Positions 2,165 through 6,230 of a stretch of DNA of 13,277 nucleotides are shown piece after piece (positions within the stretch are counted from its first letter, which is position 1; each line of letters starts with the position of its first letter). Under the pieces are notes generated by a model, which saw nothing but the letters and a program-made list of their open reading frames with translations, had not been told where the DNA came from and ran no database searches. This stretch comes from Saprospiraceae bacterium. GTDB lineage: Bacteria > Bacteroidota > Bacteroidia > Chitinophagales > Saprospiraceae. The stretch lies in contig SLKL01000471.1 in NCBI GenBank assembly GCA_007134625.1, positions 1 to 13,277 on the forward strand, read 5' to 3'. The translations under genes and the position numbers were made by a program.

Positions 2165-3358
2165 TCAATTTCCTCTTGCTACAGTAACCAGTTTTATCAA
2201 TCCAAGGGCTACAAGGCAAATTAAAATTGATAAATATCCAAGCTTATCATAATTTACAAATATCTCATCAGCTCCATCTGTGAAAACTATTAGTCCACTA
2301 AAAAATCCGGCAAAAGCTATGGCTAACTGTTGAACGGAAGACTTCAAGCTCATAAATGCACCTCTTGTCTCAGGAGGAGCAGCTGCTGTAATAATGGTCT
2401 GTGGACCAATCATTCTGCCGCTACCTAAAACATAAAACATGGCAATGACAAATAAACCATATACAAAAGTAGTGGTGGACATCTGCGTAAGGAGAATAAC
2501 CGGCAGAAAAGAAAGTATCATAAATATAACACCCGATCGCAATGAACCTATTCGGTCAGTAATCTTACCAATGATGGGAGTTGAGAAAATAGTTAAAAAA
2601 CCACCTGCAAAATAGAGGTAGGAAATCTCCGTCATTGAAAAGCCAACATTCCTGATCATAAAAGGTGCAATAAAGGGAATAATCAAAAAGTGGCCCAGTA
2701 TTAAGACAAAAGCAGCAACCAAAGCTTTTATTTGATTGGCAGAAGCAATGATCTGTTTAATGGGCTCAAATAATTTTTGCAATTTATATTCTTCAGATTG
2801 CACCTCCAGAGGGGGGAATTTTATCAGAATTAAAATGGTAAAAATCATACCCATCAAGCCCACAAATAAAAAAGTTACTCTCCAACTCAACCAATCTGCA
2901 ATCAGGAGCCCAACCGGAACGCCCAATGCTGCAGCAGCAGAAAACCCGGCCATTAATAATCCGATAGCGGCTCCCCTTTCTTTAAAAGAGTAAAGATCAC
3001 TTACAATGGCTAATGCTACTGCACTTAATAAGCCCCCGAATGCACCTGCCAGAAAGCGAAGTAATAATAATTGTTCGTAACTACCAACTAAGCTACAACC
3101 GCTGGCTGCTATCCAAAATGCCGTGAAAAGAAAGAGCAAAGTCGTTTTTCGATTAAATCTGTCCATAAGAAAAACGGCAGCAAGACCGGAAAGAAAAGCT
3201 GCTATTGCATAAGCGGTAATCAGATGACTGAACTGAAAAGCCGAAATATCGAACTCACGCATGAGCTCGTCACCCAGAGGCATCAATACCATGGTGAACA
3301 TGATGTGGGTAAAATTCACCCCTGCTAAAACATATACGACCAACTTTTTTGCCTCCAT
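2165..3358 (-). CDS. MFS transporter, drug/metabolite efflux type (DHA1/AraJ-like)
   Basis: A 397-residue inner-membrane transporter of the major facilitator superfamily, a normal length for a 12-helix member. Hydrophobic segments run through the whole protein, with a more polar central loop at about 180-205 dividing two six-helix halves. The MFS motif A between helices 2 and 3 is degenerate but visible (FLMDRFNRK at 63-71). Its counterpart in the second half is GKITDRIG at 264-271. A motif-C-like stretch (GFSAAAALGVPVG, 138-150) in helix 5 is typical of proton-coupled antiporters, so efflux of drugs, sugars or small metabolites is likely; the substrate cannot be predicted. The start ATG at 3358 gives MEAKKLVVYV, directly entering helix 1. 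The gene is transcribed alone, with a TATTTTTG box 27 bases upstream. Confidence 0.88.
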   Translation of the reverse strand: MEAKKLVVYVLAGVNFTHIMFTMVLMPLGDELMREFDISAFQFSHLITAYAIAAFLSGLAAVFLMDRFNRKTTLLFLFTAFWIAASGCSLVGSYEQLLLLRFLAGAFGGLLSAVALAIVSDLYSFKERGAAIGLLMAGFSAAAALGVPVGLLIADWLSWRVTFLFVGLMGMIFTILILIKFPPLEVQSEEYKLQKLFEPIKQIIASANQIKALVAAFVLILGHFLIIPFIAPFMIRNVGFSMTEISYLYFAGGFLTIFSTPIIGKITDRIGSLRSGVIFMILSFLPVILLTQMSTTTFVYGLFVIAMFYVLGSGRMIGPQTIITAAAPPETRGAFMSLKSSVQQLAIAFAGFFSGLIVFTDGADEIFVNYDKLGYLSILICLVALGLIKLVTVARGN

Positions 3359-3393: not shown

Positions 3394-3420
3394 TATTAGC
3401 CGGAAAGGATAGTATAGGAG

Positions 3421-3464
3421 TTTATAAAGTTATTAAAGTTTGTAAAGTTCAAAAGTTCTTAAAG
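3421..3464. repeat. Short degenerate tandem repeat, about five 9-bp units
   Basis: Five head-to-tail units of consensus TTnnTAAAG: TTTATAAAG, TTATTAAAG, TTTGTAAAG, TTCAAAAG (one base short) and TTCTTAAAG. It lies upstream of the MFS promoter box. It may be a slippage-derived AT repeat or a protein-binding array; the sequence does not decide between them. Confidence 0.7.
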
Positions 3465-3479
3465 TTATTCCCTTAGATG

Positions 3480-3504
3480 TGTTGAGCATTTCGAATGCTC
3501 AATA
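3480..3504. repeat. Perfect stem-loop (9-bp stem, TCG loop)
   Basis: TTGAGCATT at 3482-3490 pairs perfectly with AATGCTCAA at 3494-3502 around a TCG loop. One G-T and one T-A outer pair extend it to 11. No T run follows on either strand, so it is not a typical intrinsic terminator. It could be a palindromic repeat element or a binding site. Confidence 0.65.
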
Positions 3505-3663
3505 ACCTCCTGCCGAACTAATTGCAGCAGTAGCAGAGTCAAAGGGTTTCAAAAGATTAATAACGAAGCTGAAAGGTATTTTAAACTTGACTTGTCAGGT
3601 TGGGTTAACTAATGAGAGTGATCAGGGAGCAACCTTTACGTTTTCATTTCTAGCAAAATAATT

Positions 3664-3669
3664 ATAGCT
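3664..3669 (+). repeat. Left target-site duplication, ATAGCT
   Basis: ATAGCT directly abuts the left terminal inverted repeat and recurs in the same orientation directly after the right one at 3926-3931, as expected from a 6-bp duplication made on insertion. Confidence 0.75.
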
Positions 3670-3752
3670 GAGTCCACTCCGAAAACCCCTTTCTATTACA
3701 AATTGCTGCAAAATCCAATATCTTCGTCATCAGGGAAAATCTTTCCTCAGCG

Positions 3753-3772
3753 TCTCGTCTTTTGGGACGAGA
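3753..3772. repeat. Stem-loop inside the MITE-like element
   Basis: TCTCGTC (3753-3759) and GACGAGA (3766-3772) form a perfect 7-bp stem around a six-base loop. It lies in the GC-rich core of the element. Confidence 0.7.
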
Positions 3773-3817
3773 TGGCTACGTCTGCGGGCCACCCTCCCGC
3801 TTTGCGGTTCTCTCTCT

Positions 3818-3838
3818 TGGAGGTCTCCCAGACCTCCA
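3818..3838. repeat. Strong stem-loop inside the MITE-like element
   Basis: TGGAGGTCT (3818-3826), loop CCC, AGACCTCCA (3830-3838): a perfect 9-bp stem with a three-base loop, the strongest structure in the element. A smaller hairpin, CCGC TTT GCGG, lies at 3797-3807. Confidence 0.75.
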
Positions 3839-3925
3839 CCTTTCAGGATCGTTCGTTCACCCCTCTTCCTCGATCTTGAATTTTTCGCTCATTTTCATGA
3901 CGAAAAGGGTTTTCGGAGTGGACTC

Positions 3926-3931
3926 ATAGCT
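3926..3931 (+). repeat. Right target-site duplication, ATAGCT
   Basis: Same 6 bp as at 3664-3669, directly following the right terminal inverted repeat. Confidence 0.75.
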
Positions 3932-4008
3932 GACTTTTAATAAAATCTACTCTAAGTCAGATATGACTAATGAGTAAATAAATGAATATTTTTCTTTCTT
4001 ATTATCAC

Positions 4009-4016
4009 TACCTTTG
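4009..4016 (+). promoter_or_regulatory. Bacteroidota-type -7 promoter box for the M20 amidohydrolase
   Basis: TACCTTTG matches TAnnTTTG exactly and lies 12 bases before the chosen ATG, implying a leader of only about 9-10 bases. The box overlaps an alternative TTG codon (4014), which argues against translation from that TTG. No clear -33 TTG is visible. Confidence 0.5.
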
Positions 4017-4028
4017 TTGAAAAAAGAA

Positions 4029-5168
4029 ATGAAAATTGATCTTGAACGGATTATAAGTCTCAGACAGAAACTACACTCTATCGCAGAGTTGTCGGGAGAA
4101 GAAGTAGAGACATCAAAATTGATTTACAGTTTTTTGGAAGAGCAGAAACCTTCCCAACTACTAAAGCTGAATAAAAATGGGCTTTTAGCAATATACGAAG
4201 GGCAAAATGAGGGGCCTTCAATCTTAATAAGAGCAGATATTGATGCTTTGCCGATTGATGAAGAAAATGACATTGAGTACAAGTCAAAAAATAATGGGGT
4301 AAGTCATAAATGCGGGCATGACGGGCACTCTGCTATTCTTTGCTCCCTTGCTATGGAACTTCATCTGAATCCGATAAAAAAAGGACGGGCATTACTACTT
4401 TTTCAACCTGCTGAAGAAACAGGGGAAGGTGCACAATGGATGTTAGATGACCCTCAGCTTTCAGAACAAAAAATAGACATGGCTTTTGCTTTGCATAACC
4501 TGCCCGGTTATCCAAAGAATGAAATTGTGTATCGGACCGGAAGTTTTAGTTGTGGTGTAATTAGCATCATTGTAAGTTTAAAGGGAAAAACAGCGCATGC
4601 AGGACAACCTCAAAGTGGAATTAATCCTGCTGGCTTAATTAGCAAAATTATTGCTAAGGGTGCTGAATTAACTAATGAAGTGATAGAGGATGATAATTAT
4701 TGTCTTATAACGCCCATATTCGGGAAATTTGGCACTAAGGCATATGGTACGGCAGCCGGAAAGGGAGAAGTTCATTTTACCATCAGGGCTAAAAGGACGG
4801 TTATTTTGCGGGAATTGCTGGAAACCTTCGAGACCTTTATAAAAAAGGAAGCGGAGAAAGATGGTTTAAAATGTAAAATAGAACGATTGCAGGAGTTTCT
4901 TTCTACAAACAATGATGAAGCCTCTGTAAATTTATTAAAAGAAGCTGCTGACAGGGCCGGCTTAAATAAACAGGAAAGAATGTATCCCTTTAGATGGGGC
5001 GAGGATTTTGGACGAATTGTCAGAAAATATTCGGGTGCATTGTTTGGTCTTGGTGCCGGGAAAAACATGCCCGAACTTCACAATCAGGATTATGATTTTC
5101 CCGATGAAATCATAGGTGCCGGTAAAGATATTTTTAATGAGATTTTAAATGTTTCAAAGATGCGATAG
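4029..5168 (+). CDS. M20D family amidohydrolase / metallopeptidase (hippurate or N-acyl-amino-acid hydrolase-like)
   Basis: A 379-residue cytosolic metal-dependent hydrolase of peptidase family M20, subfamily D (IAA-amino acid hydrolase, hippurate hydrolase and N-acetyldiaminopimelate deacetylase relatives). These cleave amide bonds of N-acylated amino acids. Visible motifs are RADIDALPI (68-76), CGHDGH with ligands Cys95 and His97, QPAEE with catalytic Glu129 and ligand Glu130, His156 in ALHN, and a final ligand His351 in PELHNQDYDFP. Residues about 170-280 are the lid/dimerisation domain, with the family hallmark GKTAHAGQP near its start. No signal peptide is seen. I chose ATG 4029; an upstream TTG at 4014 sits inside the promoter box. 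The true substrate is undetermined. It stands apart from its neighbours, about 90 bases before the toxin-antitoxin start. Confidence 0.9.
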   Translation: MKIDLERIISLRQKLHSIAELSGEEVETSKLIYSFLEEQKPSQLLKLNKNGLLAIYEGQNEGPSILIRADIDALPIDEENDIEYKSKNNGVSHKCGHDGHSAILCSLAMELHLNPIKKGRALLLFQPAEETGEGAQWMLDDPQLSEQKIDMAFALHNLPGYPKNEIVYRTGSFSCGVISIIVSLKGKTAHAGQPQSGINPAGLISKIIAKGAELTNEVIEDDNYCLITPIFGKFGTKAYGTAAGKGEVHFTIRAKRTVILRELLETFETFIKKEAEKDGLKCKIERLQEFLSTNNDEASVNLLKEAADRAGLNKQERMYPFRWGEDFGRIVRKYSGALFGLGAGKNMPELHNQDYDFPDEIIGAGKDIFNEILNVSKMR

Positions 5169-5197: not shown

Positions 5198-5228
5198 TTG
5201 TTAGACCAGGACAAATGTCGTAAATTTG
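5198..5228 (+). promoter_or_regulatory. Promoter of the Xre-RES operon (-33 TTG and -7 TAAATTTG) with candidate operator
   Basis: TTG at 5198-5200 and TAAATTTG at 5221-5228 are separated by 20 bases, a good Bacteroidota -33/-7 pair. Between them lies the palindrome GACA-AA-TGTC (5210-5219). A wider pair GACC (5204-5207) and GGTC (5229-5232) brackets it. Antitoxins of this family usually repress their own operon, so these palindromes are candidate operators; that is inference. The promoter also shows that the long open frame beginning at TTG 5198 cannot be the true start. Confidence 0.6.
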
Positions 5229-5260
5229 GGGTCAAATGTTTTTATTTAAAAGAGATGGTT

Positions 5261-5764
5261 ATGTACAAATGGGAAGACAGTATTGAAAATCGTACTTTAA
5301 ACGAAGCTATGGTGAGCTACATTAAGCAATCACCGGGTATTTTTTATTCTGATGCAAAGAGACGTATCAGTTACAGGGACTTTTTGTCTGACAAGATGCT
5401 CATTATTTTAGCCATTAGATCCGGTATTCCATTTTCTTTTTTTGAGGCTATATTTAATTTTGCTCCATTTTCTGAGAGTGACTGGGCAGATTTCCTGGAT
5501 GTTTCCACCAAGTCTTTGCAGCGCTATAAGGCTTCAGCAGACCATCGTTTTAAGCCTATTCATTCAGAGAAGATAATAGAGATTGCTGAGGTTACTCAGA
5601 TGGGAGTTGATGTTTTTGGCGATATGGAGAAGTTCCGATTGTGGTTGGATACACCGAATTTTGCTTTAGGCAATCTAAAGCCTTTTGATCTACTAAAGGA
5701 TTCATACGGAAAAGAGATGGTGCTTAGTGAGTTGGTAAGGATAGATCACGGGATTCTGGCTTAG
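5261..5764 (+). CDS. Antitoxin of RES toxin pair, Xre/MbcA/ParS family (DUF2384 toxin-binding domain)
   Basis: A 167-residue antitoxin that should neutralise the RES toxin encoded one base downstream and repress the shared promoter. The N-terminal half holds an Xre-like helix-turn-helix, best seen at about 70-91 (SESDWADFLDVSTKSLQRYK). The C-terminal half, about 115-167, is the MbcA/ParS toxin-binding domain: VFGD, then WLDTPNFALGNLKPFDLL, then a conserved end with LVRIDHGILA. The frame is open further upstream to TTG 5198, but a promoter lies there. ATG 5261 has AGAG six bases before it; ATG 5255 is an equally in-frame alternative that adds two residues. Family length is usually about 120-160, so this fits. 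Confidence 0.87.
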   Translation: MYKWEDSIENRTLNEAMVSYIKQSPGIFYSDAKRRISYRDFLSDKMLIILAIRSGIPFSFFEAIFNFAPFSESDWADFLDVSTKSLQRYKASADHRFKPIHSEKIIEIAEVTQMGVDVFGDMEKFRLWLDTPNFALGNLKPFDLLKDSYGKEMVLSELVRIDHGILA

Positions 5765-5765
5765 G

Positions 5766-6230
5766 ATGGAGGTTTACAGATTGGTGCGTAAAAAGTACGC
5801 TTTACCACTTTCAGGAAAAGGAGCTGCCTTAAAAGGCGGGAGGTGGAATTCTCCGGGATTTGAGTTAATTTATACTGCTGAAAACAGGTCTTTAGCAATG
5901 GCCGAAGTTGCTGTGCACTTAACTTTAGGTACTATACCCTCTGATTATTTGATGCTAACTATTTTCATTCCTGATGATTTACCTTATTCAAAGATTTTTG
6001 ATTCGGATTTAGCGGATGGTTGGAAAGATTTTCCTCACCCTGCTTTTACTCAGAAGATTGGGGATAGATTTATTATAGAAGCTTCACATTGTTTACTTTT
6101 CACACCGTCCGCCATAACTCAGGGAGATTATAATGTATTAATCAATCCCAATCACCAAGGCTTCAAAAGGGTTTCGGTAGTCAAATCAGAGCCTTTTCCA
6201 ATGAATAAACGGGTTTTTAAGATTAAATAA
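5766..6230 (+). CDS. RES domain toxin (NAD+-targeting, ParT/MbcT-like)
   Basis: A 154-residue RES-family toxin. Characterised RES toxins have an ADP-ribosyltransferase-like fold and either degrade NAD+ (MbcT, other Xre-RES systems) or ADP-ribosylate a target such as Prs (ParT). The family residues are visible: Arg26 in GGRWNSPG, Tyr36 in IYTAEN, Glu47 in AMAEVAVH, and Ser115 in FTPSAI. The end of the protein keeps the usual DYNVLINPNH pattern with a final basic tail. The gene begins one base after the antitoxin stop, so translation is probably coupled. All active-site residues appear intact, so the toxin is likely functional. The exact reaction cannot be settled from sequence. Confidence 0.9.
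   Translation: MEVYRLVRKKYALPLSGKGAALKGGRWNSPGFELIYTAENRSLAMAEVAVHLTLGTIPSDYLMLTIFIPDDLPYSKIFDSDLADGWKDFPHPAFTQKIGDRFIIEASHCLLFTPSAITQGDYNVLINPNHQGFKRVSVVKSEPFPMNKRVFKIK

Follow-up and report, generated by a model that had tools for sequence, protein, structure and literature searches.

Results and Discussion

A 256-bp Element between an MFS Gene and an M20 Peptidase Gene

The window, the 13,277-nucleotide stretch of Saprospiraceae contig SLKL01000471.1 analyzed here, carries a 256-bp element between an MFS gene (2165-3358, minus strand) and an M20 peptidase gene (4014-5168, plus strand). The element is bounded by perfect terminal inverted repeats (TIRs), identical at 19 of 19 bp when read directly from the window: the left TIR, GAGTCCACTCCGAAAACCC, occupies 3670-3688 on the plus strand, and the right TIR, its exact reverse complement, occupies 3907-3925 on the minus strand. 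The hexamer ATAGCT stands on both sides, at 3664-3669 on the left and at 3926-3931 on the right, and a 6-bp target-site duplication of this kind is the rule in the family described below; the same or a related end also adjoins IS1182-like transposases. An earlier note on this DNA had reported the repeats and the duplication, and our rereading places both exactly where it had put them. It had also held that the element cannot encode a transposase, which agrees with the ORF list of the window, in which no ORF of at least 80 aa overlaps the 256 bp. Elsewhere in the window, 5198-6230 holds an Xre-type antitoxin gene paired with a RES-domain gene, a probable toxin-antitoxin module.

Alignment of blastn blocks with shorter relatives divides the element into arms and a core. 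The left arm at 3670-3711 (query 1-42) and the right arm at 3877-3925 (query 208-256), both on the plus strand, are common to classes of about 109, 178, and 256 bp, which have different cores; with the 178-bp class the common arms are longer, running from 3670 to about 3753 (query 1-84) and from about 3860 to 3925 (query 191-256), again on the plus strand. Between the arms, a palindrome read by eye from the copy sequences and from the fold, TCTCGTCT-TTTG-GGACGAGA, lies at 3753-3772; it is present in 256-bp copies, longer in a 265-bp copy, and missing from a 242-bp copy. The core itself, at 3794-3863 on the plus strand, is a three-hairpin module, a separate repeat that also occurs outside the MITE family. 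Its hairpins, hand-placed from an alignment of copies (A2, below), fall at about 3797-3807, 3818-3838, and 3839-3847 on the same strand. The module matches its covariance model at 89.5 bits (E 3.6e-26), a match that is not independent, this copy being one of the 36 from which the model was built. As a single strand, the whole element folds far better than its shuffles (z -8.45 as DNA, -9.28 as RNA), and part of this score comes from the terminal repeats, which alone guarantee pairing.

A Multicopy Family with 6-bp Target-Site Duplications

The 19-bp end is abundant in the genome from which the window comes. In this assembly (2.55 Mb, 479 contigs, 74.6% complete), 75 matches were found at up to three mismatches, 39 forward and 36 reverse, against 0 for the reversed-pattern control, so the end is far above chance. 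We paired these ends into 29 complete short elements, with at most five mismatches allowed in each end: 15 of 108-110 bp, 8 of 175-178 bp, and 6 of 242-265 bp. Unpaired ends, many of which owe their state to contigs that stop inside an element, were left out of this count. The flanks of the copies vary, as the earlier note had expected of a MITE; the outcome that it had named as counting against one, a single copy with no related ends anywhere, is not what this genome holds.

The flanks themselves carry the signature of insertion. Among the 29 complete copies, the 6-bp duplication is exact in 13, has one mismatch in 11, and has two or more in 5. When the ends are read more loosely, giving 31 paired elements that include two degenerate ones of 84-85 bp, the figures are 13, 11, and 7, and for 94 elements from other loci they are 40, 16, and 38. 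Among flanks paired at random, 1.85% are identical and 11% differ at no more than one position. Only at k = 6 does flank identity peak, and the duplications have the consensus A(T/A)NN(A/T)T; loci with fewer than 20 bases of flank (2 of 127) were dropped from the comparison. Together with the 75 end matches against none in the control, the 6-bp flank identity rules out a chance inverted repeat.

All eight genomes of the genus carry matches to the element, which makes the family material for the study of MITE turnover. In a sample of 60 relatives, the own genome included, 10 match, and two of these lie outside the genus: G035, where the core alone matches, and G048, where an element of 205 bp carries both ends. 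Two further loci deserve mention. At L098 (5365-5737), two elements stand in tandem with a single ATTTAT between them, the second extending to the contig end, as if the second had inserted beside the duplication of the first. A 183-bp copy with an exact ATTTAT duplication (L154, 1531-1713) lies on a 4.2-kb contig binned as a Diapherotrites archaeon; misbinning is likely, because the isolate name has a CSSed10 prefix like that of a Saprospirales MAG.

Orthologous Sites and the Age of the Insertion

Portions of the MFS and M20 genes can be aligned between the window and one congener, G006, at 84-86% identity, and in G006 the element is absent between them; the gap between the aligned blocks is about 150 bp there and about 628 bp in the window. 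The intergenic sequence of G006 is too diverged for the junction to be placed at the level of the base, so absence is read at the level of the locus. A second comparison runs in the opposite direction. A 405-bp family member in G003 has ATGGAT on both sides; the orthologous sequence of the own genome runs through that site without interruption (395 aligned bp, 81% identity) and agrees with the hexamer at just 2 of 6 positions. The G003 case comes from a search of all collected loci with 121 of the 127 joined flank pairs; a second joined-flank match (L162) was set aside and is not relied on, because it falls in AT-rich repetitive sequence. The genus-wide matches, the G006 locus without the element, and the uninterrupted G003 site in the own genome rule out conserved non-mobile DNA, the second outcome that the earlier note had set against its reading, and supply, between congeners, the kind of comparison that it had proposed for sister strains.

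The earlier suggestion of fairly recent movement is moderately supported. Absence from the G006 locus favors it; against it, the closest own-genome copies are four at 90-91% identity over nearly full length and one at 86%, too far apart for a wave of near-identical insertions. The movement is recent in the sense that it postdates the divergence from G006, unless G006 lost the element, and not in the sense of a burst under way now. The same distances raise the question of whether the family is a fossil, its copies old, no longer mobile, and persisting as structured intergenic DNA, which would be compatible with MITE identity. Besides the 90-91% ceiling, the two or more duplication mismatches in 5 of 29 copies and the failure to find a transposase in the own genome speak for this, while exact duplications in 13 of 29 copies, presence and absence between congeners at the G006 locus and the G003 site, and the perfect ends and duplication of the window copy speak against it. 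We regard a fossil family as rather unlikely, and as the most serious of the alternatives considered here.

An IS1182-Like Candidate Partner

The exact 19-bp end was found in at least 100 genome-contig stretches from Saprospiraceae, Bacteroidales, Prevotellaceae, Cloacimonadota, Neomarinimicrobiota, and a few other groups, and in 0 of 394 other genomes of an even phylum sample; on these figures a phylum-wide spread was rejected, the end being scattered rather than general. A match in Halorubrum (L110) consists of one end with no partner end within five mismatches, and chance is suspected, since by our own estimate a few exact matches are expected in the 257 billion bases. The plasmid collection gave no match to the 256 bp and the viral contigs gave no exact end match, on which grounds a plasmid or viral vehicle was rejected.

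The earlier note had proposed a search for a longer element with the same ends and a transposase, and four such elements with related ends and a full transposase ORF were found in other genomes: L163 (1836 bp), L194 (1824 bp), L195 (1886 bp), and L196 (1842 bp). In L163, from a Cloacimonadota MAG, a 577-aa transposase ORF lies between a left end that is exact and coincides with the contig end and a right end with 4 of 19 mismatches. L196 is complete and has AAAATT on both sides, L194 is flanked by AGCGTT and ATCGTT, most of the left flank of L195 is missing, and a fifth locus, L197, has one end visible. Within the genus, a transposase copy in G004 is cut by the contig end; its left flank is ATTAAT, and its end differs from that of the MITE at 3 of 19 positions. 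L108, a derivative of 825 bp from a Prevotellaceae MAG, has ends with 0 and 1 mismatches and ATATAT on both sides, and contains a transposase remnant that is related to L195 and, over 185 residues, to L163 (30% identity, E 1e-27), with Pfam matches below cutoff.

With the G004 transposase as query, matches were obtained in 7 of 199 Saprospiraceae genomes, at eight loci, of which five (L193-L197) have GAGTCC-type ends beside the ORF and three (L198-L200) do not. The Saprospiraceae transposases are 30-34% identical to that of L163 and conserve D, D, and E positions that we take to be the catalytic triad. NCBIfam NF033551 (IS1182) is the best model for five of five transposases, at 44-136 bits; because these scores lie under the 270-bit cutoff of the model, we call the proteins IS1182-like and not IS1182 members. 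IS1182-family transposases are expected to have DUF772 plus DDE_Tnp_1 domains. DUF772 is above cutoff in all five, and DDE_Tnp_1 in two of the five (one of the others is truncated). As a separate observation, seven haloarchaeal plasmid records (H1-H7) contain stretches that match the N-terminal part of the L196 transposase at 29-34% identity, and three of the records are labelled as from a Kulunda Steppe hypersaline lake.

Longer elements with the same or related ends thus encode a DDE-type transposase related to IS1182, and an IS1182-like element is the candidate parent of the MITE, the ends of which the earlier note had matched to no named IS family. We infer that such a transposase would recognize the ends of about 19 bp in trans and insert the MITE with a 6-bp stagger at A(T/A)NN(A/T)T targets, and that the interior would be free to vary while the arms stay. 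The idea that the element depends on a full-length relative in the same genome fared less evenly: elements with related ends and a transposase exist elsewhere, and three queries found none in the own genome (74.6% complete), so dependence on a resident partner stays conditional. The genus as a whole yielded one truncated transposase copy in one of eight genomes, and assembly gaps may account for the missing gene. In seven loci that contain transposase genes or remnants, nothing longer than 20 bp matches the MITE arms once the 19-bp ends are passed.

A different, unseen transposase might instead move the MITE, the likeness of its ends to those of IS1182-like elements then being convergence or shared ancestry of the ends. 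The empty search of the own genome, the 3 of 19 differences at the end beside the G004 transposase, and the lack of common arms in the seven transposase loci would suit that account. Set against them are the IS1182-like ORFs, full or partial, that lie directly inside GAGTCC-type ends in Saprospiraceae, Prevotellaceae, and Cloacimonadota, the 19 of 19 match of one L163 end and one L108 end, and the 6-bp duplication of L196, whose A....T target is like that of the MITE; an unseen enzyme is accordingly very improbable. We are confident in reading the 256-bp segment as a non-autonomous DNA transposon (MITE) with an IS1182-like partner lineage.

Among known systems, the ISMac2 MITEs of Methanosarcina acetivorans (PMC3852290) are likewise short (160 and 169 bp), have inverted-repeat ends, and have an IS1182-family partner. 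They differ in being archaeal and in having direct repeats of 4 and 0 bp and ends of 26 and 25 bp, as the table of that paper reads, where the duplication here is 6 bp and A....T; unlike the window MITE, they have no inserted structured repeat named in the portion of the paper on which we draw. ISPse1, another IS1182-family comparison, has a 4-bp target duplication as tabulated, again different from 6-bp A....T. IS1272 has the same transposase family assignment as the candidate parent, but its new copies replaced inverted-repeat targets without a target-site duplication, its older copies lying at inverted repeats or not (PMC5678879), whereas 6-bp duplications are found here. The present family would give a divergent branch of IS1182-like elements a clear target rule, 6 bp and A....T.

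One locus with the same end family departs from this rule. In L167 (2449-3361, a Cloacimonadota MAG), the flanks form the inverted pair CCGTAG/CTACGG with no 6-bp direct duplication, and this may be an inverted-repeat target like those of IS1272; the right flank at about 7307 of L123, also a Cloacimonadota MAG, has CTACGGGATG in common with L167. The two flanks recall IS1272 targets and suggest two target modes in one end family. Cardinium is a member of Bacteroidota. Its MITECca01 (PMC9769881) is likewise a MITE of about 240 bp whose parent was recognized by inverted repeats; it differs in that the parent belongs to the IS982 family, and the part of that report used here describes no inserted structured repeat.

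A Three-Hairpin Repeat as the Core

The 256-bp form is a composite, a MITE with a family-wide structured repeat as its core. In congeners, the core of the 256-bp form matched by itself at places that turned out to be copies outside the MITE, sometimes in tandem, and some other matches were MITEs with at least one module. The module is missing from two of the three MITE size classes, and comparison by eye of a 242-bp copy (L001) with a 178-bp copy (L017) shows that it replaces about 13 bp of the 178-bp-type core. The three-hairpin repeat would thus have replaced these 13 bp or so in a 178-bp-type element and then travelled with the MITE. As a MITE, the element is ordinary in kind; the composite and the three-hairpin repeat are the new part, and no earlier description of the MITE or of the module was found in the open-licence PMC literature.

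By the covariance model, the module is present in 155 of 398 Saprospiraceae genomes and 63 of 112 genera (E ≤1e-4); because no more than 12 candidates in each genome were scored, the copy numbers are minimum values. In a phylum sample of 395 genomes, four match, namely three of six Saprospiraceae (own genome included) and, marginally, one of 389 others. A strict 38-base pattern finds the module in just 3 of 198 genomes of the order, and is too narrow, given the 155 of 398 found with the model. Copies also occur with no MITE around them: one genome from a different genus (G833) has solitary modules of about 70-75 bp, with differing flanks, at the 11 places examined. Rfam 15 has no match at E ≤1 in window 3400-4200, so no known RNA family was recognized in that interval.

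BrickBuilt of Porphyromonas gingivalis (PMC4596501) is a parallel in construction: it, too, is a MITE of the Bacteroidota, its leader and tail enclose an internal block of repeats that varies, and filled and empty sites were likewise compared between strains. It differs in its IS5-family partner, assigned by the ends, in its 12-bp TIR, and in the duplication GAAA, seen in one copy tested; its insert is a 23-nt minisatellite, whereas the insert here is a module of three hairpins that is scattered over an entire bacterial family.

A second parallel concerns the module itself, which fits the description of a dispersed short palindromic repeat if the criterion is dispersal plus palindromy and not extragenic position. 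A REP element is one short palindrome. REP and REPIN sequences with RAYT transposases (PMC2817692, PMC3116915) are likewise short dispersed palindromic repeats; the module differs in having three hairpins over about 70 bp. A motif scan of the collected loci gave no HUH/Y1 candidate of the RAYT kind. RAYT was set aside as the module's mover on this ground, a weak exclusion.

Compensatory Change in the Stems

To describe the structure, we used two alignments, in which cells count sequences and not events, related copies not being independent. A2 holds 36 distinct copies, near full-length and non-identical, from 82 profile hits, nearly all from the genus and one (L236) from another. Its structure has 16 pairs in three hairpins with 96.5% of cells paired, as against 26-46% for slid structures, and RNAalifold returns the same 16 pairs. 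Eleven of the 16 pairs have changed on both sides (shuffled mean 4.9), with 45 two-sided cells versus 9.0 in shuffles. A4 holds 39 copies outside the genus, aligned by MAFFT and not by the covariance model; 26 of the 39 come from one other genus, and L236 is common to both alignments. Here 95.6% of cells are paired, and two-sided change affects 11 of the 16 pairs, with 78 cells versus 19.6 shuffled; the count of further pair types in A4 is not above shuffles (226 of 500). A model-fitted alignment of copies outside the genus gives 98.6% paired, 14 pairs, and 101 cells, figures that lean to structure by construction.

Such compensatory change would be expected from selection on structured RNA or single-stranded DNA, and the core could be the functional part, a cis-regulatory element or small structured RNA kept by selection, with the transposon ends as its vehicle. 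The strength of the compensatory variation and the presence of the module in 63 of 112 genera are in keeping with this, as is the excess in A2 of A.C/C.A cells (11) over G.T/T.G cells (5), the former being G.U wobbles if the minus strand is the RNA. That excess is weak, however, and its cells are not independent; two of the three MITE size classes do without the module, its copies sit in varied contexts, some in tandem, and window 3400-4200 has no Rfam match. We consider a selected function for the core improbable.

Template switching from one hairpin arm to the other in replication may also account, at least in part, for the complementarity of the stems, perhaps with selection on structure alongside. 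Standard changes on one side alone are rare (4 cells in A2, 7 in A4) next to 20 and 27 unpaired and 45 and 78 two-sided cells. In the 109-bp class, the palindrome CCAA-NNNN-TTGG has its 4-bp spacer in both orientations relative to the arms (e.g., L012, 219-327): among 15 copies, 7 have CTCG, 7 have CGAG, and 1 has the symmetric CGCG. Homogenization of arms together with spacer inversion is a described footprint of template switching (PMC8604942, PMC8794818), and PMC8794818, in the part drawn on here, reports that loop inversions with compensatory changes are very rare in rRNA and that the evidence for stem maintenance is partly circumstantial. No inversion was seen in the module loops, spacer inversion being confined to the 109-bp core; uninverted loops are in keeping with hairpin-primed switching, in which the loop would be left as it was, and also with a loop that is under selection. 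We put template switching forward as keeper of the module stems tentatively, at a little under an even chance. From rRNA, PMC8794818 raises the question of whether selection or template switching maintains hairpin stems, and the module cargo is a natural data set for it.

Taken together, the roughly 70-bp module could be an undescribed, Saprospiraceae-wide structured mobile repeat whose stems are rewritten by template switching, with the spacer inversion of the 109-bp class as the same process, and which is spread in part by the IS1182-type MITEs that carry it, the composite being then a union of two unrelated selfish repeats; this joint reading is possible and falls somewhat short of probable.

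The module also turns up in other surroundings. In G005 (L201, L202, L206, L208, L212) and G007 (L247), it lies among other repeated flanks, such as GGACCGTTTCATCTGTTTAAAATT and TGCCGACGAGAAATTTG, and on contig C61 of G109 (66-639) four copies of the module follow one another regularly in tandem, at a spacing of 168 bp.
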